A DNA stretch of 64,000 nt. It comes from Cristatella mucedo. Its lineage: Eukaryota > Bryozoa > Phylactolaemata > Cristatellidae. Shown here in pieces: positions 1,773-64,000 of this stretch (positions within the stretch are counted from its first letter, which is position 1; every line of letters begins with the position of its first letter). The DNA is taken from positions 1 through 64,000 of the forward strand of contig WPIO01000257.1 in assembly GCA_009760855.2 (NCBI GenBank), written 5' to 3'. Both the position numbers and the translations under genes were made by a program. The notes beneath the pieces were generated by a model. That model was not told where the DNA came from. It worked only from the letters and a program-made list of their open reading frames with translations, and did no database searches.

Positions 1773-12707
<10,935 letters not shown>

Positions 12708-13660: not shown

Positions 13661-14620
13661 GAGGAATAAGGAAATCAGAAAGTTGTTGGCAGGCGGAAGT
13701 CGAGGGCGACCCTGACTAAGGGATTTATGATGCAACTGGCGTGTCTACGGCGAGTTTTCGACAATGTTGCTAAAAGCTCACAAGATTTAGTGCCCTGCAT
13801 TAATTTTACTGTCCAACATTGACTCACTGCTTGGGGTAGAGCACCATACTTAGCATAGCCGCGGAGAAGGAAGAGATAAAATAGTCTACTCATAAGTGCT
13901 CCTGATAACATAATGGATAAGAGAGCTACATTTCTGACGGCATTATTTCTGCTTGATTGGAAGAAAGCTCTAAATATCAGTCAACCGATTATTACAGTCT
14001 CATCAAGAACCATTTTACGCCGGACAACCGAGTTTTTGCATTCAGATTTGTTTAAGGCACTCTTACAAAAGCTGAACTTAAAACGGCGGCTTTCAGCTAC
14101 TAAGACCCAAAATTCTTTTTCACTTTAACAAATATAGCTAATAAAGAATCTCATACAGATTTTTGCATAACAGCATGGGCGGCCTTAAACTCCGCTGACC
14201 GAACGAGGCTTGCTTGGTTCCTGCATTTTAACGTTATGGTCCATAGCATCCTGCTGAAAGAGAAGGATTTTATCCCTGAAAGGCTGAGAATCCGGTTATA
14301 GCAGCGAGCTATTGCGGCTATTAAGATTACTTTATACTTTATGAAGTATACTTTTTTGAGATTCTCAAACTGTGCATGGGAACAGCTTACTGTAATGCTG
14401 AACCCTCGTGGGAGAGATGGGCGCGCTCCGTCGCCGCTCAAGCCCGAAGCCCACTCCTGAATGCAGGTTCGGGGCTCGCTGGGTGAGCAATCAGTAGAAC
14501 GTCACGCCTAGGGAGTTTTAGGCTCGATTCTAGCTCACTATCACTAGGATCGGAAGTTTGTTTGCATGCGCTAGCTCGAGTTACTAAGCACGAATTGGGG
14601 ATTTTATTGAACTTTATTCG
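13660..14620. pseudogene. Degraded coding-like sequence of unknown element
   Basis: Several moderately long open stretches occur on both strands (for example 13913-14128 plus, 14151-14441 minus), with stops and frameshifts between them. Near 14588-14620 the sequence ATTGGGGATTTTATTGAACTTTATTCG matches the polyadenylation region of the solo-LTR family at 38.6 kb, so this may be part of a decayed LTR element in minus orientation. Confidence 0.35.
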
Positions 14621-15700
14621 CCGAAGCACAATGCCGACGCCCGTCTTATTTAGTCTCGTTACCATGCTCCTGACAGACGCTTTCCAAGAGCATTGCTCAG
14701 ACATGGCCAAATTTACAGGGAACTCTTATGGAGGAAATATCGACACCATACTCAGGTCAACTGCATCTATTGCTGGGACGCAACCCGCATAGACTAAGGC
14801 CCAAGCAGCATGAAGATCGCGACAAGTTTCGCGTCGTTTCAGACCTCTCGTGCCCCGACTGTCGCTTCACCGATGTCTACTTCCCAACAGAAAAATACGC
14901 TTGCTTCTATCTTCTGCCCAGAGATAGGAGCTAGGCCGTTTTCGCTTGCCGAAAACGTTCCTTCTACTCACAAACCTGAGGCAGAGAAATCCAGACTCTG
15001 TGGGCGTGGCCACGTCCACAATGCAGTTAAGCCCCAGCCGAACTCACACCACTCCGCCCGGCCGACGGGCGCGCTGAATACCGCCTCATTAGGCGCTGCA
15101 GTTGGACAGCGTCGGCTAACTAAGCCGGATTTAATTGGAATGGGTCAGCTGTGGTCGCATGACCCGCTAGTCCTGCAGCAAAAAGCTTCCTGCTTATCCA
15201 CCGGCCTGTGTAGAGGCTCTCTCCCTCTCACTCTCTGTCTCTCTCCCTTTTCTCTTACTCCCTTATCTACGGGCGCTACGGAGCTTCTACCACGACGGCT
15301 ACCGCTTCATCCGTATGTACGCTTGCTCGCTTCGCGTTTGCCTGCCTGCGTATGATACAACTCACTTGTGGGTGCAAAGTTCATCTTCGCGTGCAACGTT
15401 CGCCATCATGCGTCGCCATCGTGCGCACTAGCCCCTACAACTCAAAAACACTGTGCTAAGTTCCTAGTCGGGAGCGAACATGCACTCGAGCGAGCTCGCA
15501 TACATACGCTCGCACATACGAGCACCCACACCCACAGAATGCAGGTCGCCGGGCTATATGAATGTATTACGTCGCCGCTCTTCCGTGGTCGTCGATAAGT
15601 GGCGTGAGTGCCGGCCCACCTCACAGGTTTTAACAGAATTGAGTGAAGCAACTGTCGGGCGCTGGCTGCCTTGAGCGAGCGTCGTCTTGGTCTGAAGTAG
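14400..15700. other. CpG-rich block
   Basis: CpG dinucleotides and GC content are visibly higher than in the flanks (TCGCGACAAGTTTCGCGTCG and similar). A plus-strand ORF of 181 codons (14810-15355) has low-complexity Ser/Pro/Leu composition and no domain. It could be a decayed LTR, or the promoter region of the minus-strand kinase gene. The sequence does not decide. Confidence 0.4.
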
Positions 15701-17702: not shown

Positions 17703-18600
17703 CTGCCATATGTAATGTAATGTATCTCCATCTGTAACTCCACAAAATCATATAAACCATGTGGGTGTTTTGTATAGCCCACTCACAGCCTAAGCGGCTT
17801 TCGGTACGCATTCGGTAGCCAACAGACTTCGTCTCACGAAACAAAGAGAAAGTGGGAAGCATAGCAGAGTCAGGAGAGCAGTTGAGGTAGCGAGTAGCAT
17901 GGAAGCAGCAGCTCAGGATCGCTGAAAAAGATGAGCCATAGTCGGCAGCAGGGGAGTAGTAGTCGTTGCCTAAGAATTGTGTAAGCGAGCTCCACAGTCT
18001 AGGACCTGCAGAGCTACAGCTTCTGTCGCCAACGGTCTTTAAGCGGAGGAATGGAACAGCTAATTTATTGTCCACACAGGACCCGAGGGTGCAAACAGGC
18101 TAAAACTGGTGCAGCAGTTCAGCTAGGTACGAAGGAGCCAAGCCGTGGCGGACCTTGTGGGTCAGCATAGGAACTTTGCTCTGAATCCTTTGCTCAACCA
18201 GCATCCATCCTAGCTCTTTTAGCAAAGGAGACACGTGCTCAAACCTCTGGGACTTGAAGACCAGCCTTGCAGCCATATTCATAGTCAGCTGCAGTGGCCT
18301 AATCATTTTTTTTTGGTAGCCCAGCCAAAAGGGAATTGCAATAATCAAGCCGAGACAGAACTAAGGAGCTAGTTAAATGTTTTGCAGCCGCTGTGGAAGA
18401 CAGCTCCTAATCTTGGATAGGGATAGGACGTGATGGCTAGCTGCAGAAGCAGTCTTCGAATGAAGCTTTTAAAATTGAGGCAGTTGTCGAAAACGAAAAA
18501 TACATTTCGAGAGAGCAGTGATGGTCACACAACAGCATCACCTATAAGAAGAGCAAAGTCCTTTAATCCAGCCATACGCTTAGGGTGTGTTTCGATGTTG
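17703..18600 (-). mobile_element. LINE2 copy, minus strand, 5'-truncated
   Basis: Its 3' end is the ACATT-type tail (TAATGTAATGTATCTCC on the plus strand). It encodes, read from the minus strand, QLTMNMAARLVFKSQRFEHV, SPLLKELGWMLVEQRIQSKV and MDNKLAVPFLRLKTVGDRSC in pieces. The insertion directly abuts the LINE1 fragment at 17702, consistent with insertion into that older copy. Confidence 0.8.
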
Positions 18601-19162: not shown

Positions 19163-19600
19163 TTATAAACATGCTTTTGGAGGGACAACTCCCCCAATTG
19201 GCGGCCATTTTGGCGGATAACTCCCACTACTGCCGGACATACCCCCTTTCAGGAAGTTTTCCGACATCCAGGATCGAATATCGGCAATGCAAGCATTCAA
19301 TTTTTCAGTTGCTGCAGCATATTCCGACGGTTTGAATGAATAATACAACTGAGTATCGTCATCATAAAAGTGATATCCTATTCCATGGGCCTTAATCACT
19401 TTTCCCAGAGGTTGTGTATAAATGGAGAACAGCAAGGGACCGAGTACAGACCCTTGAGGGACTCCACAGGTGACCTTTCTCGTGTGTGAGACCTGACCCC
19501 CACACAATACGGATTGAACACGATCGGAAAAGTACGATTTAAACCACGCCAGTGCTTCGTCCGCCAGACCAATCGTTGTTCTCAATCGTAACATCATAAA
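19163..19600 (-). mobile_element. LINE2 reverse-transcriptase fragment
   Basis: The frame encodes a reverse-transcriptase core: LADEALAWFKSYFSDRVQSV, CGVPQGSVLGPLLFSIYTQP and the catalytic box YDDDTQLY (usually YADD). It then reads ACIADIRSWMSENFLK. It is the best-preserved LINE2 protein segment here, but both ends are truncated. It abuts LINE1 in the opposite orientation. Confidence 0.85.
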
Positions 19601-19604
19601 TATC

Positions 19605-21185
19605 CTTAGTTTCAGAAAATATCCCTACCCCTTTCAAAAAGGCAGTAGTTAGGCCAATAATTAACAAAGAAACACTAAACCAAGAAAACTTAAGCAGTTC
19701 TCCCAATCTCCCTTCTATCAAAGACCCCGGAACGAGTTGTGGCAGACCAGCTGAACTCTCAAATCGAAAATTCGAACCTAGCAAGTAGGTTCTAGTGTGG
19801 ATTTAGAGCTAAAAGATCATTAGATTCAGCATTGCATAGGGTGTATTATAAACTTCTCAGAAATGCAGACTTGGATGAAGTCTCTCTGCTCATTTTGCTT
19901 GATATTTCGGCAGCGTTTGATGCGATTGATTATCAAGTACTTCTCGAACGCCTCTCATTTCGCCTTCGGATGAGTGGCACTGCACTGCAATTGTTTACGT
20001 CCTATCTCAGTGGGAGACTCCAGAGTATCGTCGTCAACGGAAAAAGATCATCCGAGGAACCACTGAAGTATACGGGACCTCAAGGCTCTGCGCTTGGTCC
20101 GCTTCTTTTCACAAAGTATATTCTCCCTCTTGCCGATATGATCACCAAGCACAGTCAGGGTTTCACTTATGTGCAGATGAGTTCACAGTTCGTACCTTTG
20201 CTTTGACCTCTCCCAGCCATCCAGCACGAGAAGCTCTCTGAATTTCTCGTGCGGCGTGTATTTCTGACATCCACAAATACATGGCAGAACACTTTTTTAA
20301 ATTAAGTTATGGTAAAAAGATCTTACTAGTTTTAGGCAAACCAAGTGGGACTCAGAAATTCGAAAGATTAACGTTCAAAACCAGCTCTGCCAGCATTTCT
20401 CCTGTTGCATCTGCATGAAACCTAGTTGCCCTGCTTCAAAGCGATATCTTGCACTCGACGACCACATCAGCTCCATAGCCAAGTCTGCCTACTTTCAGCT
20501 ACATTGCTGAAATTCTGGCTTGCTTAGACAGGGATACTACATCCAAATTGATCCATGCTCTTCTGAAATCCCGTCTCGATCTCTGCAACTTGCTGATCCA
20601 CCGGCTTGAGCAATCAGATGCTTACATACAGCTTATGCAAAACTCTGCAGCTAGGGGTCAGTCTATCGTGAGCGTCGCAGTTACCATATCACACACCACT
20701 TCTTGATGATCTGCACTGGCTCTCAATCCGGCTGCGCATCGACTTCAAGGTCTCGTCACTCACTTGTAGGTCCCTTCATTCTCTGACTCCAGCCTACCTA
20801 TCTGAACTACTCCACCACAAGGCTAGGCATCGTTTCACCCGCTTTTCTGAATCAAATTGTTTATCTGTACCTTGTACAAACCTCAAATCATTTGAAGGCC
20901 GTTCCTTTAGATCGCATGCTCCTAGAGCCTGGAACTTACTCCCGACTGACGTCACGGTATCCCTAGACTTGATGATATTTAAAAAGACACCAAAATGCAC
21001 CTGTCTTTGACAGAATTTACTAGGTCTTTATGATTTGTCATGTATGTGCTTATGCGTGACATCGTGCATGCTGCCATTAACAGTTTGATCATTGCTGCCG
21101 TTACGGCACATATAAAGTGCCTGGGAACATTAAGTTCTCTGTGGACACTATGCACATGTATTATTATTATTATCATAAAGGGCTG
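19605..21185 (+). mobile_element. LINE1 copy, reverse transcriptase to 3' end
   Basis: Starts in the segment FKKAVVRPxxxK..LNQENLS, continues with LLILLDISAAFDAIDYQVLL, RLQSIVVNGKRSSEEPLKY and QGSALGPLLFTKYILPLADMI, then the C-terminal region and the 3' tail with AAGTTCTCTGTGGACACTATG and an (ATT)n run at about 21158-21174. Several frameshifts and stops (for example TGPQG for YGVPQG) make it inactive. It is a CR1/L2-type non-LTR retrotransposon without poly(A). Confidence 0.88.
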
Positions 21186-23915: not shown

Positions 23916-24082
23916 TCGCAGGAGCACTATATATTCGAGCACACCTTCGCTCGAATCATTACAATAAATTACAATTATTACACGAGCTGCGTAGATATTT
24001 CTGTCTGTCTGTCTCTATGTCGCTCTCTCACGGCACATGGCCGTTCCTGGCTTATGCGTGCGGAACATGCTGCCTCGCAGCC

Positions 24083-24264
24083 TAAATAAATGAATAAATC
24101 CTAGCTGTTTAAGCAGCCTCTTTTGTATAGCAACAGAAGAGCCTTGACGGCTATTACCACCGCTTGCAGTGGCAATACAGGATCGCCCACCACAGGAATC
24201 GAACCCACGACCTCGGGACCGGGGTCATAAAAGCAACCATCTTACCAAGTGTGCCATCACGGCT
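24083..24264 (-). repeat. SINE-A copy 5
   Basis: The tail reads AATAAATGAATAAATCCTAG on the plus strand. Box B is intact as GAATCGAACCC. The head ends near GTGCCATCACGGC. Confidence 0.85.
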
Positions 24265-24469
24265 CAGGCAGTGCGGATATTCTGGCGATAGCTGAAAGGG
24301 CCAAACGGAATGCTGGCCGCCCTTGGCCCGGTAGTACTGCTATTAATTAAGCAGCAACCTGCTCCGACGCATTGATACACCTTAATTCGCATAGGCTAGA
24401 TATTTCAGGCCAGCCGCTGTGTCATGTTGACCGGGTGCTATTGCTTGGCGCCATTTGTTCTGCTCCATT

Positions 24470-25805: not shown

Positions 25806-25986
25806 AGCTGTGATGGCTCACTAGGTAAGGCGGTTGCTTTCACGATCTCGGTCCCGGGGTCGTGGGTTCGATTCATGCGGTGGGCAATTCTTTATCGCCG
25901 CTGCAAGCGGTGGTGATAGCCTAAAAGGCTCTTCTGTCGCTATACAAAAAGAGGCTGTTTAATCAGCTAGGATTTATTTATTTATT
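25806..25986 (+). repeat. SINE-A copy 6, between LTR and gag
   Basis: A well-preserved copy: GCTGTGATGGCTCACTAGGT start, GGTTCGATTCATGCGG, and a (TTTA)n end. It inserted into the leader of the gypsy element. Confidence 0.88.
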
Positions 25987-25989
25987 AAG

Positions 25990-26530
25990 CTACAAGCTAC
26001 TTCGGCGGCCATAGAGAACGTAAAATTCAGCCACATCGTCACTCAATTCGACGGCAGTGAAGACTTTTCGGGCTTGGTTGTAAAGTTTGATCTGGTGGCA
26101 GAGATTCAAGGTACTGTCGTTGCCGACCGCCACAAGCTCCTGCCCTTTTTTCTAACCGGTGGAGCGTTAGCCGTGTACCAGAGCGTCGATGGATATACCA
26201 TCGTAAAAGAGGCTCTCCGAGCTGTATTTTCGGGGGGTAAATTTAAAGCGTTTATGGAGCTCACGACACGGTGGCTCCAAGCTGGGGAAACAGTGGAGAT
26301 ATATGCAACGGTTTTGGCCCGGCTGGCCGGACTGGTGAGTTTGGCTGCGGAGAATGACTTGCTAAAATTCGCTTTCGTCACTGGTCTTCCCGAGGATATC
26401 CGCAAGCAACTACGCGCGGCGTGTGCACTCGACGAGATAGCGATTTTCGAGGTGGCTGAGAATGCTCGAGCGCTTACAAGTTGCCAGGAGCCGAGCTACG
26501 CTGCTGCCGCTGGGGGCACTAGGAGCTAGA
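25990..26530 (+). pseudogene. gag: Ty3/gypsy gag capsid region
   Basis: An open frame without stops from about 25990 encodes IVTQFDGSEDFSGLVVKFDL, KLLPFFLTGGALAVYQSV, LTTRWLQAGETVEIYATVLA and LLKFAFVTGLPEDIRKQLRA. This order (FDGs.D..W..K, lLPlFL.G.A...Y, RRW.pGE.v..Y...L..La, F..GLP..i...L) is the gag capsid signature of one metazoan gypsy lineage. No start codon is obvious because a SINE replaced the leader. Confidence 0.85.
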
Positions 26531-26539
26531 GGCTCTCGC

Positions 26540-26705
26540 CCGGCTCCACGGAAGCGCTTTGATTTCGCCTGCAAAATTGAAGGGCACATTCGTCGCGACT
26601 GCCGTTCGTTGCAAAGGCAACGAATGCTGTGCTTTGTATGTGGGTACGATTTGCACCTAGCAGCGATATGTCTGGAGCGTCGCACCGATTCGAAGTCAAA
26701 AACGA
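26540..26705 (+). pseudogene. gag: Gag nucleocapsid zinc knuckles, degenerate
   Basis: The +2 frame gives FDFACKIEGHIRRDCR and then CFVCGYDLHLAAICL. These are two CCHC knuckles; the first has lost one cysteine. The shift relative to the capsid frame near 26500 is a frameshift. Confidence 0.75.
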
Positions 26706-26779
26706 GTTAGGGTGAAGCGGGTGTTATAGCGCTGGCGCATTCCCCTGCTTGTCAACTCGACTGCCTACAATAAATGTTC

Positions 26780-28205: not shown

Positions 28206-28376
28206 GCCTAGTAATGGCTCGCAAGCTCCGGCGGTTGCTTTTCACGACCTCGGCCCCGAGGTCATGGGTTCGAATTCTGTGGTGGGCGATCCGTTATCGC
28301 CACTGCAAGCGGTGGTGATAGCCGTCAAGGCTCTTCAGTCGCTATACAAAAATAGGCTGTTAAATCAGCTAGTAGT
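28206..28376 (+). repeat. SINE-A copy 7, inserted in RNase H
   Basis: Contains GGTTCGAATTCTGTGGTGGG and the tail TTAAATCAGC. It is flanked by TAGTAATGGCT on the left and TAGTAGTGGCT on the right, an 11-bp target duplication with one difference. Confidence 0.88.
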
Positions 28377-35540: not shown

Positions 35541-36907
35541 TGATAATACCGAAGATGGTATTGACAACGACCGATGTAATTTGCTGGCATGTGCAATCAA
35601 TATTTATGGGCTACTTCACTAATAGCGTAGCCAAGTTAGACACAGAGAACATACATAATTCCCAAAGTAGGTACGAACGATACAGGTCCTTATTGCATTT
35701 CGATAAATAAAGAAGACTTATTTTCACAATACAAAAGCGGTATTTAGAATGCAATTATGGCCTGCTTGCTGCAAGAGCGACAATTTGCTTTTCCCATTGA
35801 GAAGCAAAATCAAATGCTGTTGAAGAACACGAAGCCAAATAGCTTCAGCGACACTTGATGTCCTTAGGAATTAACCGCATAACCAAGCACAGCAGTAATT
35901 TCAATAGCTACAACAATATTTTCCAGAGAGAACTGTCTAGCCACTGCAAAAAGTGCTAGTCCACTAAACATGACCGTCCCATACCCATGCTCCACAGTAG
36001 GGCCTGGGTGATGGTGCAAGCCCACATGAGGAAGAAGCCCCCGTAAGAGTTGCTAGGTGATGCGGATTAACGCAGGCGAACGAGCGGCATAGCATTATCT
36101 GATAGGTGCTCGCTGGCGGTGGGTAGGCAGCTCTCAATTAGAAGAGGAAGAGAGGACAGGGAATAGCTTCCGTACAAGTGGACGGACAGGCAGAAAATGA
36201 GGAGCAAGCGATGATGAGGTCCTCATGACCCAGGCAGTAACTGCTGTAGTTTGGTTCACACATCAGAGAGCCAGCCGATGAACAATGCCAACAATTTATT
36301 CTACTACTCACAGAGCAGAGGGAGCACGACTGCACTCGCCCCTCTCTCCCACTCAAGTCTCCTCTCCTTGACTCCGGCTGTGCCTTGGCCGACCCCGATG
36401 GCGAATCCACCATCTTTTCACCAGTACGTTATCGGCCTGTGTCACCGCATTATTAGAAGTGGACCACACCTGTGCACAGGCCCCTCTCGAGGATGCTCCC
36501 ACCGGATGTTGAGGAAAGGAGCGGTACCAGCCGGCATGCTATCGAACTACAATTGCCACACCCAGCTATCGGTACGCTTAAGCTGACAGCCGTCCAGTGG
36601 CGAAGGGTGAAATTGCCAACCCCTGCGGTTGACCTTGATTGGGAAAGGGACCGACATCAACCTGAACAGTCTGAACGAGTCACCTGGGCGCCCGATTCCA
36701 CGAAGCCAGCTGGAAAGCCTGCGCCAGGCCGAATCATTTGTCTCCAATAACCCGATTCAACAAGAAACACACCCAGCTAGAAAACTGAGAATTTGAAATC
36801 AGTGGATTGGGCTGCAGAACCATTTTCACGAAACTGGAGCACCACAAACGAACTTGAATCGGAAGCTGATTTGCTGTGCTCAAATCAGGCATGCACACCA
36901 ATGCATG
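35541..36907. other. No gene recognised
   Basis: Short ORFs on both strands between 36138 and 36970 have no motif. The target site of the left solo LTR lies at its right border. Confidence 0.4.
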
Positions 36908-38168
36908 TGTAGCGCCTTGCTGGCATTGGCCGAATTTGAGCACGAACAAGAGCTGTTCGGTGGCGGGCAAGAACTCCTTTGTCCTGGAGCAGTGAGCCAG
37001 AGAGGAGCGTCAGTGCGGTTAGAGAGCAAGAGCTTAGGAGCAAGCCAGGAAGCTCTGAGACTAGCGGTGCCGATTTGGCCTTTAGAATTGGTCCGATACC
37101 CGCGGGAGCTGCAGATTGATGTTGGCTGGCCTGTCAACCTCAGCCATCACTCTGTCCAAAAAGAATCGTCTGGAACCCATTCGCCATTCAAGCTGGACAG
37201 AGGGGCCATTCCAGTGGCCTAGTGGCGGTAATTATTCCTTACCGTAATAGGCCCTGGTGTCGGGCCCAATACCACTAAGCTCTTGCCCCATTGTCTCAGC
37301 TAAGTATTTAAGAGTCGAGCGATGCTCGCTCTTGGTCTTTTGGTCTTCTGGTCTTTTTCCGGCTCCGCGCTTCGACGCCGTCGGACTCGTTTCTCTGAAA
37401 GCGAGGGAGGAGGGCGGGCTGCTCGCCGGCGATGGACGGAACAGGACGAGCCAGCGCTAGGAGGATTCGGTGGACTCCACCGAATACGGTCGTATCGCGC
37501 CCGAGCTGGCATTTTGCGTTTCTTTTGTGTTTTGTGTGTGGGCGCTCTCACGTGGTCTCGGCATAAGGATTAGCCGGTGCGAGCTAGACGTAGTTGGCGT
37601 GTGTGGAGTCCTAGTTCTCCGGTTAGGGTTTAGGCTCCGGTTTGGGCTCTGTCTATTTGGGTCGTTCCCCATTATACATGTAAGTAGCTTAAGTGTGGAG
37701 AAGCGTTTCCTCCGCAAGAGTGCTTCAGTTGGCGTGTGGGGTATTCCTGCCGCACTGGTGGAAATGGAGTCCTAGCTCTCCGGTTAGGGTTTAGGCTCCG
37801 GTTCGGGCTCTGTCTATTTGGGTCGTTCCTAATTATAGACGTAAGCAGCCTCAGTGTGGAGAAGTGTTCCCTCCGCAAGAGTGTTGGCGCTGTTGAGAGC
37901 GTGCGATGAGTGGAGAGATAAAACTGAGCTAGACGCGCAGCGACTTTGTGCGCTTGCGAATAAAGCTCAGTAAAATCCCCACTTTGTGTGTCTCGCATTC
38001 CAAATCACGCCGCGGACTCACGACCCCCTTTAGTAATGGTAAGCAGGTCAGCGCCAGTAACGCTCGTTTCGTGGCGGCCAACTTATTGCGGTAGGCGCGC
38101 ACCGAACGGCATTAGGCGCTAGGTTACGCCGCAGGTCAAGCCCACTCCGCCGAGCCTTCGGCGTTACA
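36908..38168 (+). mobile_element. Solo LTR, plus orientation, 1261 bp
   Basis: Begins TGTAGCGCC, ends GGCGTTACA, and is flanked by a perfect 4-bp duplication CATG (36904-36907 and 38169-38172). Inside are a TATA-like TATTTAAG (37305) and an AATAAA signal (37959-37964), plus about two copies of a roughly 160-bp internal repeat containing CCTCCGCAAGAGTG. No internal region follows, which is the product of recombination between two LTRs. The ORFs predicted within it are not genes. Confidence 0.88.
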
Positions 38169-38244
38169 CATGTAATTACCAGTTCTATAAATATTGCCGA
38201 TGAAATGACACTAATATTCACCACATATTCGTTGGTATATTCGA

Positions 38245-38363
38245 CTGTAATCCTTCCAAGCCATACGTGTGGAACTTGCACAACTCTTACGCAACAACTA
38301 CTCTCCTGCTGCTGACTATGGCTCACCCTTTTCAGCAGTCCTGAGCTGCTAATTCCATGCTAC
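38245..38363 (+). mobile_element. LINE2 3' fragment, left part
   Basis: GTGGAACTTGCACAACTCTT to CCATGCTAC matches 8190-8295. It continues at 40011 after the solo LTR. Confidence 0.85.
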
Positions 38364-40010
38364 TGTAACGCCGAAGGCTCGGCGGGGTAAGCTTGACCTG
38401 CCGCTTACCTAGCGGCGTAGCCTATCGCCTAATGCCGTTCGGTGCGCGCCTACGCGCAATAAGCTGGCCGCCACGAAACGAGCGTTTCTGGCGCTGACCT
38501 GCTTACCGTTACTAAAGGGGGTCGTGAGTCCGCGGCGTGAATTGGAAAGCGAGACACACAGATTGGGGATTTTACTGAACTTTATTCGCAAGCGCACAAA
38601 GTCGCTGCGTGTCTAGTTCAGCTTTATCTCCACACTCCTCGCACGTTCTCAACTGCACCAACACTCTTGCGGAGGGAATACTCCTCCACACTAAGCGCGA
38701 CCCGGACCCTAAACCCTAACCGGTGAACTAGGAATCCGTTCCCACCTGTGCCGAGGGAATACCCCAAACACGCCAACGTAAACACTCTTGCGGAGGGAAT
38801 ACTCCTCCGCACTGAAGCGCATACCGGAGTCTAAACCCTGACCGGTGAACTAGAACTCGGTTTCCACCAGTGCGACCGGAATACTCCACACACGCCAACT
38901 CAAGCACTCTTGCGGAGGAAATACTTCTTCCCACTGGGGCTGCTTACGTGTATAATGGGAAACGACCCAAATAGACGGAGCCCGAACCAGAGTCTAAACC
39001 CTGACCGGTGAACTAGAACTCGGTTTCCAACAGTGTGGCAGGAATACTTCACACACGCCACCTCGAGCACTCTTGCGGAGGGAATACTTCTCCACACTGG
39101 GGCTGCTTACGAGTATAATGGGAAACGACCCAAATAGACGGAGCCTGAACCAGAGTCTAAACCCTAACCGGGAACTAGAACTCGGTTTCCACCAGTGCGG
39201 CAGGAATACTCCACACACGCCAACTCAAGCACTCCTGTGGAGAAAATACTTCTCCACACTGAAGCGCGAACCGGAGCCCAAACCCTACCCGGAGAACTAG
39301 GGCTCCACAGACGCCAACTACGCCTAGGTCGCACCGGCAAACCCTATGCCGAGACCACGTCCTAGCGCGAACACACAAAACACGAAAGAACACAAAATGC
39401 CAGCCCGGGCGCGATACGACCGTTTTCGGTGGAGTTCCACCGAATCCTCTTAGAGCTGTCTCGTCCTGTCCCGCCCATCGTCGGCGGACAGCCCGCCCTC
39501 CACCCTCGCTTTTAGAGAAACGAGTGCCCGACGGCGTCGAGGCGCAGAGCCGGACCAAACACAAAAGACACGTGGCAAAAGACCTAGAGCGAGCGTCGCT
39601 CGACTCTTAAATACTTAGCTGAGACAATGGGGCAAGAGCTTAGTGGTATTGGGCCCGACACCAGGGCCCATCACGGTAAGGAATTAATGCCGGCACTAGG
39701 CCACTGGAATGTCCCCTCTGTCCAGCTTGAATGGCGAATGGGTTCCAGACGATTCTTTTTGGACAGAGTGATGGCGAAGGTTGACAGGCCAGCCAACATC
39801 AATCAGCCGCTCCCGCGGGTATCGGACCAATTCTAAAGGCCGACTCGCCACCGCTGGTCAGAGAGCTTCCTGGCTTGCTCCTAAGCGCTTCCTCTCTAAC
39901 CGCACTGACGCTCCTCTCTGGCTCACTGCTCCAGGACAAAGGAGTTCTTGCCCGCCTCCGAACAGCTCTTGTTCGTGCTAAAATTCAGCCAAGGCCAGCA
40001 GGGCGCTACA
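38364..40010 (-). mobile_element. Solo LTR, minus orientation, 1647 bp, inserted in LINE2
   Basis: On the plus strand it reads TGTAACGCC...GGGCGCTACA, the reverse complement of the left LTR, flanked by a perfect 4-bp duplication CTAC (38360-38363 and 40011-40014). The flanks join into continuous LINE2 3' sequence (..TTCCATGCTAC / CTACTCACTACCTC..). It carries about five internal repeat units (starts near 38662, 38783, 38904, 39067 and 39228), with periods of about 121 or 162 bp, explaining its greater length. Confidence 0.9.
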
Positions 40011-40225
40011 CTACTCACTACCTCAACTGTTCTCCTGACTCTGCTATGCTTCCCAATTTCTCTTTGTTGCGTAAGACGAAGTCTGTTGGCTAACGAATGC
40101 GTACCGAAAGCCGCTTAGGCTGTGAGTGGGCTATACAAAACTCTCCTGCGTAACACCCACATAGTCTTTATGGCTCTGTGGAGTCACATACGTAGATAGA
40201 TTAAATTACATTCCATTACGTTTAT
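40011..40225 (+). mobile_element. LINE2 3' fragment, right part
   Basis: ACTCACTACCTCAACTGTTC through CCGAAAGCCGCTTAGGCTG and the AACACCCACAT tail, ending TTACATTCCATTACG. Confidence 0.88.
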
Positions 40226-41460
40226 TCCACTGCATTAAAGCATACAGATGGGAAGCGAGGACGCGACTTAGATCTACCGGAAACCGGCTACGCCAAAGCG
40301 TCTGGCTTGAGGAAGTATAGGTACCAGGTACAGATGGGTGCCGACCAGCATCTGCAAAGAGTGTATCTATGATAGTTAATCTATTTATGTCTATGGGTCC
40401 GAAGGGTGTGATGCCATGTTATTACGTCACAGCCCACATTTCCGGCAGCGCCGTCGGCCGAGGAATCTCCCTTCCTGGTTGTATGTATATCTTGGTTACG
40501 TCTGTCTACCTGGTTGGTGCATTGTCCTAAACATCACTTCAAGAGTTGGAGATTTAGATACGTGAGTTAATCTATGAATCGTCCCAGCATATCTGCATTG
40601 TTCGGTAGGCTTCGAAGCGGTTTGACTTTTCGGCGGTCAGGCGTAGTTGCCATTCAACGTAGATCTACCTGAGTAATACTATTATTTGAATTCTACGAGG
40701 CAATGCTTTAGCATGAGATGAGCCTACTGCAATTAGTGACCTTGGTGCTTACTGAGTGGTTGGATAAAGTACTTACCCCGAAGAACCCCTCAGCATGAGT
40801 GTCTTGCCTTTTCTGAGTCTGTGTATTAGCACGGGTATCAAAACAGAGATTTATGAACATATTATGGTTTTCACGTATGGTCTTAGCTGCACTTAGCTAA
40901 TTTATACCCAGCGGCTTAGGGCAAGTTGATCCAGCTCCCTTTTGCTTGACGGTGTGCGTCGATTTCGCGTCAAGACCTCTTCTAGTTGTAAACTAGCTAC
41001 GTGTGGTTCAGACCGCACACTTATTAATTATTTATGCTATGCTCACAAAGCACTGTTTTGATACCACTGCTGTTATGCGTACTCACATTAAATGCAGAGG
41101 GGGGTCTTTCTTCTTGGTGGGTATTTTTGCTGCACACGACCTGTTACTTGGTGCCATACTTGCCCTTTCGCGGCGAGTTGCGGCTCAGCGTGTTGATCAT
41201 CTACGGATTCCTTTCTTACAGGTCTGAGAATTCCTATGTGCGAGGTTATGTGGGTCGAAGTTATTTGGGTCGTGGCAAAGTAAATGCCTGACCTAATTGT
41301 AAAGGCTGATCCCCCATTACAGCCGATTGTAAGCCTAACCTGGTCGACCCACCGCCGTCGTAATTGATTGGCTTGATTGTGGTTCCCTCTCTGAATGATC
41401 CTAGCTCCAGGATACCTATTGTAATGGGTAGTAATGAAACAAGCAACATTGCTGGCAATC
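40226..41460. other. No gene supported
   Basis: One plus-strand ORF at 41034-41291 (85 codons) begins MLCSQSTVLIPLLLCVLTLN, which looks like a signal peptide, but no cysteine pattern, splice site or homology supports it. The rest holds nothing I recognise. Confidence 0.3.
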
Positions 41461-53300: not shown

Positions 53301-56300
53301 TTTTGGTAGACCCTATCTATTAACTCGCTAGCTGGTTCTTCCAGTCTTTCATTCTTATTTATTTCCTTTTATCTGTCTGAACGGTCAGTCTTGAGAGGCT
53401 TGCTTTTGGTTCCCGAGGTTCAGGTCAAACCCAAGAGACCAACAAAAGCTGTATCTTTGTTCTCGGAAAAACGTGTTGATAACAGGAGAGTTTCTTTTTT
53501 GAGACTCAAGCCTTACTGCAGCATTAGCCTTATTTTGAGTTTTGATCTTTTCTTGTTTGCTGTCTCAATGCTTCAATTATTGTATGCTGGATCGTCATGT
53601 TATCGTCTTTACACAACTTTCAAAGATTAGAGCTTCTATTTCAGATTTGCCAGGACTGCCTACAATATTACCATCTGCCTTGGATATGATTGAGGGTCGT
53701 GTATCCACGGTAACATGTCAGTCGCTCGGTGGCTACCCTGCTCCGAATATTACCTGGTACAATGGTGGTCTTCTGCTGCAATCCAACGTACCTGTGACGT
53801 CCGGTAGTAGTGGAGATGTGAACAGTACCATCAGCTTCGTCCCCAACTATTCAGACGATGGAGCGTCACTAACATGTGTTGCCAAAAATGTTCTCGGCAG
53901 TAACAATTCAACCGCTTTGCTCAATGTCAGTTGTAAGTAGATTTTCTTTCTGTAGTGACAAATGATGAGCAGCCCATGCATGTATAGCATTGTGCAATGA
54001 CTGCTGCTTTGTTGATGCTGCCGATTCGGCAATTGCTATTCCCAGCATATGTCATTCCCTCATTTATATTTGATTCCATGGACTATAGTAGATTTTATTT
54101 TTTGTCTTCATTTGTCTGAAAGTCACGATGGACTGGGATACTTAAAATCTGGTGGTTGGGTTCATTTAAATATAAAAATGTGATGTATATTTAATTATGC
54201 TTTACCTGAGCTCACTGTTGCTAACGTTTCTTACATTTCACTAAAATATTTTGCATTATTTGTAAAGTTTTGTAATTTCAGGGAAATTAACCGTTTCAAT
54301 ATTAGAAAAGCTGTTGATGTATGTACAATTTGCAGATGGTTCTAGGAATGTCGTACTAAGATCATCTGCAGCTTCAATTGTGGAAGGTGGTTCTGTTATG
54401 CTAACGTGCTCTGCTCAGGGAAAGCCGCTACCCTCCATATCATGGACAACGCCTAACACAAGTAAGCAGCTATTTTCTTCCTTGCTTGTGTCCATTGATG
54501 TCGATCACATTGATCACGAAATGCTCATACTTGATGCTTTAAAAGAAGATAGAAGTGCACCTATTTGTCACTACATTTGCTGGGTTCATATGAATAGTCT
54601 TTTGTGTACTGAAGCATGTGGACACTGTGCATGTTATCTCAAACCAATTGCTACGATTCCTTTGCAGCATATTTTGAGTGTCTAGAACAAGATTAATTTC
54701 TCTTTGGATGCTACATAAATGTCATTATTGTTGTTACTATTGATCAAGCCGATGGCTGATTTTTACCTGTAGTTCTTTGCAAATGCAGGTGGGAGCAACA
54801 TCCAGTTGAACAACTCCATAGGAGTATCATACTTGTATGTGGGTCACATACAGAGGCAAGCAGCTGGCATATATATTTGCACCACTTCGAACTTTGTCAA
54901 CCAAATGAACAACTTGAGCATTTCTAGCAACATCACTCTGGATGTTCAGTGTAAGCCATTTTATACGCTTTTGTCGTTTTCATATTTGAGGTAATCTCTG
55001 AGTAGGTTTTTTCCATAATCACTTAAATATTTGATTCACCATTTACGATCTCGCTAATGTGAGCTGTTGTCGAGTAGGCGGTGAAATCGACTATTTATTT
55101 TATTCTGTATCCGATTCATGATTTGTAGATGTACCAAGCAAGCCAATCATATACCCAAGCTCGGTTAACTTATCTTCTGGAGATAATATTAGTCTGACAT
55201 GCAATGTCACTGACCCAGGTAATAAATATGCCTTTTATTCTCTCACTTATGTTGTCTGTAGGCCATGCAATGCACTATGGCATTGCGAATATTTTTTGTG
55301 ATCATATGCTTATTTACTTGGCACGTTGTGGTAGACCATCAGCATAGCCTTCTCATTTTAATGATATCTGGTTAGTGACAGTGTTTGTAGGTAGTGGGAT
55401 GCATGACTATTGACTGCATTTGTGGTGACTAGCTTAATTGTCTTCCTGAGTAGAGTTGGTTGTTTTTAGTGTGCTATGTGTGCACAGTGGCCAGTTACCG
55501 ACATGCAAGTTCTGTATCTGTGCTACCATTATCTGTTTCACTCTGAGGTAACTAATATTTTCGTATAACTACTTTCTTCGATTGTGACTTTAGCATGAAA
55601 TGCTTGGCCTATCCCCTGCATTTCCTGCTGGAACAGATAGCATGAACACATAAATGTGGTGGAATCAGTACTAATACAGCTCTCTTGGGTGACAGTCTTT
55701 ACTCCTGCCTACCTATCCCAACTGTTTCTCAATCAGGCTAGGCTCGTACAACTAGCTCTTCTAATTCAGGTCGTTAAGCTACTAACCTGAAATCTTTTTG
55801 AGACATTTCATTGAGTTCGCATGCTCCTAATGCCCTGAACTAACTCCCGAATGATTTCGTGACATCCCTGGACTTGACAGCATTTATAAAAAAAGAAAAA
55901 ACATTGTTCCTCACAGCATTTGCTGGGTTCGTGTTAATTGTTCTTAGTTTGCTTGTATTTGCTGACACGGTTTATGTCATCACCAACCAGTTGGCAAGCT
56001 TCTTTCCCCAGCATATATGTAAAGTGCCTACAAAGAGATTTATTAGTACTCTTAATTTCTAATCATTATTATTTTCTTAACCTTCTTATTTTCAAGACTG
56101 ATAGTCTAGGTGCGGTCAATTTCAGATGCTTTCCTTGAATGAGACTCCTGTGTCATTTCTTGACAGTTCTCTGATTAGTTTTGCTGCTGCACCAAATATA
56201 CGGAAATAATTCTATTAGTGTCATCCGGAGACTGACCAAAAGTGGATCTCATGCATATATTGATGTCTCTATATCAGAATAGTTTAATGTCAAGTTAATG

Positions 56301-60558: not shown

Positions 60559-60904
60559 GGCACGTCTTGGAATTCGCTAAGCAGGGCTAAACCTTCATAG
60601 AGAGAGGCCTAAGCTGGACCCTGCTTGAGTCGGCAAATCGTAGTAACCAGCGTGCCCCATTTGGGATTTGCCACTGTGATTTAGGGTGTCAGCAGCCCCT
60701 TTCTTTGCTACACCTCCGCACACGGTCCATAAAATCATGCCTACCGAGAATTAGCGCTTCCCACAAAACTTCGAGAAACTAAGGGCAAAACTGTGCTGTG
60801 AGGGTGATATACACATAGTCCTCAAAACCGGCTAATGATTGATGTTTTGCAATTCCTGTCCTCACTGTGTAATATTTAAATGTGTAGAGACCTTGACAAA
60901 AACC
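60559..60904. other. Nothing recognised
   Basis: Downstream of the candidate terminal exon. No clear polyadenylation signal cluster or repeat is seen. Confidence 0.35.
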
Positions 60905-61060
60905 CCAGAAGGTAAGGTGCTTGCCCTTAACGACCGAGGTCGTACGTTCGAATCCTGCAGTGGGCGACTCTTTATTGCCAACTGCAAGCAGTGGTGATAC
61001 CAATCACGGCTCTTCGGCCTCTGTACAAATAAGGCTGTTAAATAAGCTAATGTTTATTTT
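60905..61060 (+). repeat. SINE-A copy 9
   Basis: GAAGGTAAGGTGCTTGCCCT, box B CGTTCGAATCC, CTGCAAGCAGTGGTGATACC, tail AGGCTGTTAAATAAGCTAAT. Confidence 0.85.
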
Positions 61061-61970
61061 ATTCATCCCAGTGCTTACATACCTAAAACACTGCAAGTTT
61101 AGGACTAGGGCTGCTTTGAAAATCAAGTCATATTCCTGGGTTACTAAGGTGATGTCGAATGGCAAAAAATGAGCTAGTTCTGAAAAATTAAGGATTTGAG
61201 TTTTTTATGACTTTATGCCTATATGGCTGCTACAACATTTACATTATACCGGAAAAGACGAGTAATTTAGATAGCTGCAATCTGACCAGTTCCAAGCCCT
61301 GAGAAATGCTTCTAATAGTAATCAAGATCCACTCGAATTTGGATCTCAGTGTATGGTGACATTTATATTGCATGCGATTTATTCTTTTTAATGGCAGCAG
61401 CTCGTTTTACTGGAAATTAAATGTGCACTTACTTGCCCAGCTTGTCTGGTTGGATCTTTTTGTAGTACATGTGTTGTTGCATCTGTAAACGCTTGTGGAG
61501 TTCTTGCATTTATGTACTCTATTAAAATCACACGGGAATTAAGATGGTGGTAATTGCTTAGTTACCAGTGTTTGCTTTTTTAAACATGCACAGCAAAGAA
61601 GTAATTCTCCAGTAATCATCAAATTAATTTACTGCTGTTATTCTCTCTATAATCGAGGCAAACGACCCTATAAGATGCACTTCCGATGTGGAAACGTTTT
61701 TAAAATGAAGTTGGGTAGTTAGCATTATGAGTTCCTCATTCAAACCATGGAATTTATAGTCAGTACTGTTGTCTCTGTTCTCTAATTAATGATGTAGGGG
61801 AACAGCCACTTTCTAGTCTCCAGTTGAATCTTATGAGAAAGCAAGTGGTGCGATTCCAGCAAACATGGGCATCGTTTCATTATGTAGCCTTGCTCATGCA
61901 TGACATTAATTGTGGTCTCCAGCCCGAGTGTAACAAGCAGCAAGTTATTCCTCAGTAGCTAGATAGAAAG
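61061..61970. other. Nothing recognised
   Basis: AT-rich sequence with no ORF above background and no repeat end I can assign. Confidence 0.4.
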
Positions 61971-62110: not shown

Positions 62111-63800
62111 GCTTCTTGCCATTATTCATTTTAATTGAAGTGGAACAATATCAGCCTTAAGCCTCCGGTGAAAATCTCGGAATTTCTTGAAAAGGAAAAC
62201 GTCTAATTGCACTAGCCGATGATTCCTTGCAGTACTGGATGTATATCGTTAAGGCTGCCTTCAGTTCGTGCCCCCTTGTTCTTGAACATTGTGTGTAAAA
62301 AAATGTACCCAGTATCCAAAAATTCGGCTTGCATACTGTGGATTCCCAAATGACTTTTCACGTGAAGTATTTCGCATCGCTATACTTCTTAAAATAAGGT
62401 AAGATACGCTATAAGCTGTCGTGATTATCCTTTCAAGCCACAGGATCTTGAAATTCGATCAAAGTCGAGGTAATGCTACATGTGGCCAAGGGTAGGCGTT
62501 TATTGCAAGGACTGAGTGGCCTTGGGCACACGTGCATGTTGATTGGCCTTGCCGGTGCGTGCTGGGTTGTAGCAGCTGTCGTTGCAGCAGCTAGCCTTGG
62601 CTTCGGTAGACCCCCATGAATGAAAGCTTGCTTGCTAAATGTTTTCTTGCAGCATACATAGTTAAAACACATTGAATCTCCAAAACTCAAACATATGTGT
62701 GAATAAGGCAGCTAGAACTCTGTCGACAGATCCTCAGTCGAGTCGACCCCATCCTGCCAAGACTGGAAGGACAGCCTAGTCAGTAGCTTAGGTATGTGGG
62801 CGGTGTTCAGGTGAGGTTATGCAAGTTCTGCATTGAAAGTGTCGATTTAAATGTAATAGTTATGTCGTAGACTGTGGACTAGTTATATCGTAGACTGTGG
62901 GGGGGACATTTGAAGTCACAATGCAACCTGTTGCTATGTAGGAATGCAAAGGCCGCAGTAGCGGCTGGCTAAGGTGCTACTGCAGTGACGCATCCCAGCG
63001 AATTGTTGGTGCTGCAGTCCTTTGGTGTGATCTCGCTACTGGTCTCCTGCAGCCTTCGCACTTGACTTACACTACCAACCCACCAATGACTATGCGCTTC
63101 AGTCGAAACAGCCTGTGGCACATGTGAAGTACGAATGTATTTCTTTAATGATGTGGTTTGATGCCAGCTTTGATCTAGCAGTGGCCCTTTTTCTGTAGTC
63201 CGTTTTCTAGGCAGTCTCACTCTAGCCAAGGGGAGGCTGAAGTGTATTAGTCAAGCTATAGCACAATAATGTCGGACATTGTGTTGGTCAAGTTACCCAA
63301 AGTATCTTCTTGTTCCAAATGGAAAACAAGGCAGATGGTGGACCATCCGACCTACTAGTGGCCAATGTTGCTCTTACAGGGGTAATTGCTGTGGTTAGTA
63401 GGGCTAGCACCAGAAACATGTGGCTAGACGCGAAGGCTATGTCGCGAATTCTTGTGGTTGCACTTTTGAACAAAAGACTTCTTTTTAGTGAAAGTAAGTT
63501 AGTTACTCATTTTCAGGGCGAGTGCACATGCTGCTCTCTTTGATGCCTTATTATTAACACACTCCTATGTGATCAAATCTGTCAGGTTTTAGCACACTGG
63601 TTAATGCAGCTTCCTGTATAACATGGGTATAGACCCGTGGACCCTGTTGAGTGACAATATGCAACTCTCTGCTCCCTTTTGACTAAAGCTATTGTATGAA
63701 CGCTTCTCCAATCTCTGAGCTCTTTCCTGCCCATTGCTCCATCAAGCTAAGTTGGATGCTTTGCTTTTTGTTAACTGTTGATATTGCTTCTCTTGAGTTG
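62111..63800. other. No gene supported
   Basis: A plus-strand stretch at 62470-62610 would encode a hydrophobic segment (MLIGLAGACWVVAAVVAAAS), and 63381-63492 is an open phase-1 segment between CTCTTACAG and GTAAGT. Neither joins convincingly to the Ig gene. A tandem duplication TCGTAGACTGTGG occurs twice near 62867-62900. Confidence 0.3.
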
Positions 63801-63804
63801 TGAT

Positions 63805-63962
63805 GACTAGGTAAGGCGGTTACATTTCACGACCTCAGGGCCGAGGTCATGGGCTCGAATCCTTTGGTGGGCAATCGTTTATTAGTGCTGCAAGCGGTGA
63901 TGATAGCCATAAAGGCTCTCCTGTCGCTATGCAAAAGAGGCTGTTAAATCAGCTAGTAGTTT
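63805..63962 (+). repeat. SINE-A copy 11
   Basis: GATGACTAGGTAAGGCGGTT head, box B GGCTCGAATCC, tail GAGGCTGTTAAATCAGCTAG. It resembles copies 6 and 7 most. Confidence 0.88.
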
Positions 63963-63964
63963 AG

Positions 63965-64000
63965 TGTGAGCTGTAAAGCACCTGAATAGAGATTAATTAG
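63965..64000 (+). repeat. SINE-B tail at window edge
   Basis: GTAAAGCACCTGAATAGAGA then TTAATTAG is the SINE-B tail; the head is missing. Confidence 0.55.

Follow-up and report, generated by a model that had tools for sequence, protein, structure and literature searches.

A 3.1-kb palindrome in the Cristatella mucedo genome read as two neighbouring solo LTRs of one Ty3/gypsy family

A 3.1-kb palindrome in the genome of the bryozoan Cristatella mucedo represents, with a probability that we put at about 96%, two independent solo LTRs of one Ty3/gypsy family, a by-product of retrotransposon insertions 195 bp apart. It lies within a window of 64,000 nucleotides, the whole stretch of DNA analysed here (contig WPIO01000257.1, positions 1 to 64,000). 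The two LTRs, A and B, are old remnants of a common retrotransposon family. We posit that a host repeat received a 5′-truncated L2-type LINE copy, that one retrotransposon of the family (A) inserted into the host repeat and a second (B) into the LINE copy in the opposite orientation, and that each would have lost its interior when its paired LTRs recombined, so that a single LTR stayed behind within its own 4-bp duplication. The intact duplications around A and B suggest this mode of loss, their separate duplications and empty sites show the independence of the insertions, and the position of LTR B within the LINE copy makes it younger than that copy. Target duplications and empty sites thus resolve the giant palindrome into nested insertions, and there is no need to list it as a fold-back element; the pair is otherwise unremarkable genomic debris whose history is clear.

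The two LTRs and their ends

The initial annotation had described a long inverted repeat with arms of over 1.2 kb, formed by LTRs of one family in opposite orientation, and comparison base by base upholds this description (Table 1). Global alignment of LTR A with the reverse complement of LTR B leaves 1140 of 1259 gap-free columns identical (90.5%), with 69 transitions, 50 transversions and a longest exact run of 73 bp, and BLAST returns the inverted repeat as one alignment (E=0) that spans 987 columns, 55 of them with gaps, at 85.8% identity; the similarity is far above chance. In both LTRs, TATTTAAG lies at an equal offset and AATAAA occurs once. Their difference in length mostly reflects the number of 122-163-bp tandem repeats: LTR A has two repeat copies, 161 bp apart, and LTR B has more units (122 and 163 bp).

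Read in LTR orientation, both elements start with TG and end with CA, and the CATG copies around A and the CTAC copies around B are exact on direct reading, just as annotated. Each thus has the hallmark of a solo LTR, TG...CA ends within an exact 4-bp duplication; the chance of finding two such duplications at the predicted ends is ~(1/256)^2 by an arithmetic estimate. With Ty3/gypsy (Metaviridae) solo LTRs, A and B share the TG...CA termini, a TATA-like box, AATAAA, the 4-bp duplication and the lack of an internal region; nothing essential differs, although A and B are long (1.26 and 1.65 kb) and contain a variable tandem-repeat block.

Table 1. Features of the palindrome and its surroundings (window positions)
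Feature	Position	Strand	Remarks
Left target-site duplication of LTR A	36904..36907		CATG
Solo LTR A, 1261 bp	36908..38168	+	ends TGTAGCGCC...GGCGTTACA
LTR A signals	TATTTAAG 37305-37312; AATAAA 37959-37964	+	
Right target-site duplication of LTR A	38169..38172		CATG
Host repeat broken by LTR A, right part	38173..38268		collinear with L040 at 73%
LINE (L2-type) copy, 5′-truncated, portion left of LTR B	38269..38363	+	ends CTAC
Solo LTR B, 1647 bp, family of LTR A	38364..40010	-	+ strand reads TGTAACGCC...GGCGCTACA
LTR B signals	TATTTAAG 39606-39613; AATAAA 38581-38586	-	
Right target-site duplication of LTR B	40011..40014		CTAC; left copy 38360-38363
Rest of LINE copy, to ~3′ end	40015..40212	+	matches to window LINE copies
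Host repeat continues	40213..41258		79% to L040

Host sequences and empty sites

LTR B was said to interrupt LINE2 sequence that rejoins exactly around it, and it does: once joined, its flanks align across the junction to three other LINE copies of the window, at ~8.2 kb (255/290), 17.9 kb (243/289) and 4.9 kb (158/196), and at the corresponding position all three have a single CTAC, the empty site. The portion left of LTR B matches 8193-8296, 4893-4986 and 17893-17985, and that to its right 8292-8489 (89%), 17710-17897 (85%) and 4982-5088 plus 5260-5355 (79-80%). We take these copies to be LINE2 (L2-type) from their motifs; a Pfam RVT_1 match at 19163-19624, upstream of the 17.9-kb copy and on the same strand, supports a LINE-type reverse transcriptase (RT). 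Of the spacer between the LTRs, only the right half (from ~38269) is LINE; the left half belongs to a different repeat, the one broken by LTR A. A SINE-sized dispersed repeat of ~165 bp is found at 5089-5259, 25806-25979, 28206-28376, 24082-24266, 63794-63966, 599-763, 1523-1684 and 60904-61062 of the window, and one of its copies interrupts the LINE at 4.9-5.4 kb.

The host repeat broken by LTR A has a counterpart elsewhere. A genome search with window positions 36700-36907 found two places, the window itself and C332:14736613-14736813 (75%; locus L040), a diverged collinear paralogue that contains neither LTR A nor the LINE copy nor LTR B, and no similarity to either LTR was found within it. 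In reverse complement, L040 corresponds to the window from 1348 to 1706 (36551-36908, 75%), from 1704 to 1794 (38171-38268, 73%) and from 1787 to 2850 (40213-41258, 79%); target duplications of LTR A and the LINE copy would account for the short overlaps at 1704-1706 and 1787-1794. That of the LINE copy is probably represented by CCATTACGT at 40213-40221 and CCATACGT at 38261-38268. Across the target, the alignment of the joined LTR A flanks to L040 is gap-free. The four bases of the target itself have diverged in L040, however, and the empty site of LTR A is therefore a matter of collinearity and not of an intact CATG. Aligned to L040 on its own, the right flank scores 79, against at most 39 in 300 shuffles. 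Together with the empty sites, the collinear paralogue indicates that the host repeat gained the LINE copy, LTR A and, within the LINE, LTR B separately. About 300 bp of the window at 36244-36550 are absent from L040, which reflects either a further insertion here or a loss from L040.

The LTR family in the genome

A genome DNA search with LTR A yielded at least 78 matching pieces; it scored 40 candidates out of the 2171 from the first look, so that the resulting copy counts are lower bounds. Merged by hand, these represent LTR A, LTR B and 39 other places, 20 of which were read with ~4 kb on each side. Thirteen of the 20 have an exact 4-bp duplication around one LTR, and the copies read are for the most part solo. 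The other seven lack an exact duplication: L028 adjoins Ns, L029 and L030 give truncated matches, a dinucleotide repeat surrounds L023, the flanks of L021 and L032 agree at three of four bases, and those of L024 show no resemblance.

Further LTR fragments lie within ~4 kb of six of the 20 copies (L018, L020, L024, L026, L030 and L033), against ~0.6 of 20 expected, by an arithmetic estimate, if 2171 copies were placed at random; either the copies cluster or they outnumber those counted. At L018, where a separate GTAT duplication flanks the main LTR, the extra fragment reaches the edge of the stretch read and may be a paired LTR. L026 has a 185-bp plus-strand fragment (2576-2760) tail to tail with, and 1225 bp from, a minus-strand LTR (3986-5226), and L033 a 67-bp minus-strand fragment (3589-3655) head to head with, and 358 bp from, a plus-strand LTR (4014-5735). 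Two more loci were picked among the first 100 matches listed for the exact 17-base LTR 5′ terminus, which occurs 560 times in the genome (control, 0): L037, a direct pair 3.3 kb apart with separate duplications (ATAT/ATAT and CATT/CATT), and L038 (C50:378200-382500), a head-to-head inverted pair whose 5′ ends lie 778 bp apart, with different flanks around its LTRs (ATAT/ATAT and AATG/AATA, the latter agreeing at three of four bases). The separate flanking duplications count against either locus as a single element. Inverted neighbours thus recur in the family, with varied spacing and truncation and with no fixed unit. Under random placement in 572 Mb, the expected number of inverted pairs separated by 195 bp or less is 0.05 for 560 copies, 0.17 for 1000 and 0.80 for 2171; since clustering raises this number, the A/B pair needs no special cause. 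A 17-base LTR pattern also turned up in six viral contigs, which we take as chance, as the exact stretches shared extend over only 17-21 bases; a 30-base pattern among genome contigs and a 27-base pattern among viral contigs gave no match.

Affiliation with Ty3/gypsy comes from sequence adjoining the LTRs. Among 46 LTR 3′ ends followed by TGG within 5 nt, seven begin TTTTGG; six of these lead into sequence resembling a primer-binding site (GCGCCC or AGCCCG) of the form TGGCGCCCGAACGGGGAC, over varying match lengths, and the seventh is the inverted LTR of a locus described below, L041. There, an LTR is followed by TTT and TGGCGCCCGAACGGGGAC and then by RVT_1 matches (Pfam; one piece reaches E 3.3e-20, the other 5e-5, which falls short of the curated cut-off). 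Both RT pieces are closest, among solved structures, to the Ty3 RT 4ol8 (E 2.7e-20 and 1.2e-21), which places the LTR family in Ty3/gypsy; the pol of L041 is cut off by the inverted LTR shortly after RT. A genome search with 250 bases of this pol found 20 places, 12 of them, L041 included, at 81% or more, and in the three of these read as loci besides L041 (L044-L046, 3.2 kb each) no A/B-type LTR was found within that span. Tracts of nine purines preceding an LTR, as expected of a 3′ LTR, were found three times, where chance alone predicts 3.3 for 560 termini, and this test thus gives no sign of attached internal regions. L042, read as a possible full-length element, was rejected: past its LTR only 19 bases match the L041 internal region, and the relatives of its RT piece (2597-3457) are LINE-1 RTs and further RT chains other than Ty3.

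A FastTree phylogeny was built from 29 U3 sequences, the short matches of L026 (query positions 475-600), L038 (436-600) and L028 (109-600) being left out. LTR B groups with both LTRs of L037 and the minus-strand copy of L038 (local support 0.904), and LTR A stands on its own branch; because many deeper nodes are weakly supported, only the separation of LTR A from the group of LTR B is used here. In U3, the best match of either LTR is L031 (92.7% for A, 95.0% for B), and A and B are 92.3% identical to each other.

Alternative origins, hairpin formation and other features

Fold-back elements such as Tm1 Mutator/Foldback are mobile units, and with their long inverted arms around a centre they resemble the A/B pair in outline. 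In a single 3.1-kb terminal-inverted-repeat transposon of this kind, with a 195-bp centre, arms and centre would form one mobile unit within one outer duplication; the outer flanks of the pair instead differ (CATG and CTAC), each arm has its own duplication, and the centre consists of LINE and host repeat with no element sequence, so that the pair is not one unit. A query of 38169-38280, made up of CATG, the non-LINE part of the spacer and 12 LINE bases, matched only itself in the 572-Mb genome (this search sees close copies only, and the 73% relative in L040 went unreported), and two exact 12-base LTR 3′ ends that point towards each other over 182-210 bp are present at a single place, the window (control, 0), compared with the 560 exact 5′ termini; this pattern, being palindromic, matches the window on both strands. 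A family in which both arms always occur together with the 195-bp spacer, named by the initial annotation as the sign of a single fold-back element, was not found among close copies of the spacer half or exact facing ends, and its view of the arms as independent solo LTRs is sustained. We regard a fold-back origin as extremely improbable.

The family itself provides the model for another origin, a single aberrant insertion of retrotransposon cDNA with inverted LTRs. L041 (453-5950; C332:9056452-9061949) has two LTRs of the family in inverted orientation, with their U5 ends inward, which are 99.8% identical over 1035 bp and flanked on the outside by CGGC on both sides; one of them contains a 178-bp insertion that resembles a tRNA-derived SINE. 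Its interior runs from a primer-binding site through a 421-aa frame and the RT pieces, with one stop in the RT region, and then jumps into the inverted LTR, which goes on with TTTTGGCG, the first bases of the leader and the primer-binding site. At the jump, where pol of three other copies reads CGCCAACGTC, L041 reads CGCCAAAATG, and at the inversion point the primer-binding site and pol overlap by six bases (CGCCAA/TTGGCG). L041 is apparently a single insertion of a family retrotransposon with inverted LTRs. Plus-strand strong-stop DNA may have mis-annealed to pol by the six bases and, if extended as the minus strand, would have placed an LTR at each end with the U3 ends outward. A narrow literature search found no description of a locus like L041, which we do not claim to be unreported. 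L041 has matching outer flanks, near-identical LTRs and retrotransposon sequence between them, and the window pair has none of these: its duplications differ, its arms have diverged (9.5% of aligned columns) and contain different numbers of repeats, and they enclose host DNA, leaving an origin like that of L041 with hardly any probability here. Nor do we favour a copying of one arm to produce the second, since LTR B groups with other copies in the tree. Counted against the reading as two insertions are the seven of 20 copies that lack an exact duplication, the diverged L040 target, the scoring of 40 of 2171 candidates, and L041 as an indication that the family can yield inverted LTRs in apparently one insertion; two independent solo LTRs nonetheless remain the preferred account.

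The arrangement had been annotated as capable of forming a hairpin, and computation agrees. The predicted RNA fold of the whole stretch has a minimum free energy of -2498 kcal/mol, with 93.5% of LTR A paired to LTR B. Four controls in which LTR B was shuffled base by base reach -1106 to -1117 kcal/mol, with 9-24% of LTR A paired. It is conceivable that a neighbouring promoter transcribes the pair and that the predicted hairpin would yield small RNAs silencing this family of several hundred copies in trans, but we consider such a pathway very unlikely. A transcript of the full stretch should fold, and be far more paired than the shuffled controls. The LTRs, however, lie tail to tail, each with its AATAAA between its own TATA-like box and the opposing arm; their own transcripts should thus end before the hairpin, and hairpin RNA would require read-through or an outside promoter. 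Chance placement (0.05-0.8 pairs) and the clustering of copies suffice to explain the pair, and we give only a slight chance to the idea that the host exploits it to silence the family through hairpin RNA.

At the DNA level, the initial annotation suggested that the pair could be a hotspot for inversion, a role that is not needed to explain it. The pair resembles the close inverted Alu pairs that are studied as sites of chromosome instability, in that repeats of one family lie in opposite orientation and can fold; the A/B arms differ in being longer (1.26 and 1.65 kb), with a 195-bp spacer and 9.5% divergence. Their outermost 436 bases are 94% complementary. According to one study, the instability of inverted repeats is normally lowered by distance and divergence, whereas in long single-stranded DNA it is suppressed only by heterology above 25% (PMC10164571).

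Elsewhere in the window, 14391-15439 could be a distant LTR relative (TGTAATGC...CCCTACA), with similarity to the poly(A) region at 14589-14646; no matching flanking duplication was seen around it. Frames at 25963-26707 appear gag-like by eye, one having a CCHC knuckle; 25963-26529 has no Pfam match, and no similarity to the A/B LTRs was found beside these frames. Exon-like frames include one with a protein-kinase match on the minus strand (2062-2457) and, on the plus strand, those with immunoglobulin domains at 53539-53940 and 54266-54685.
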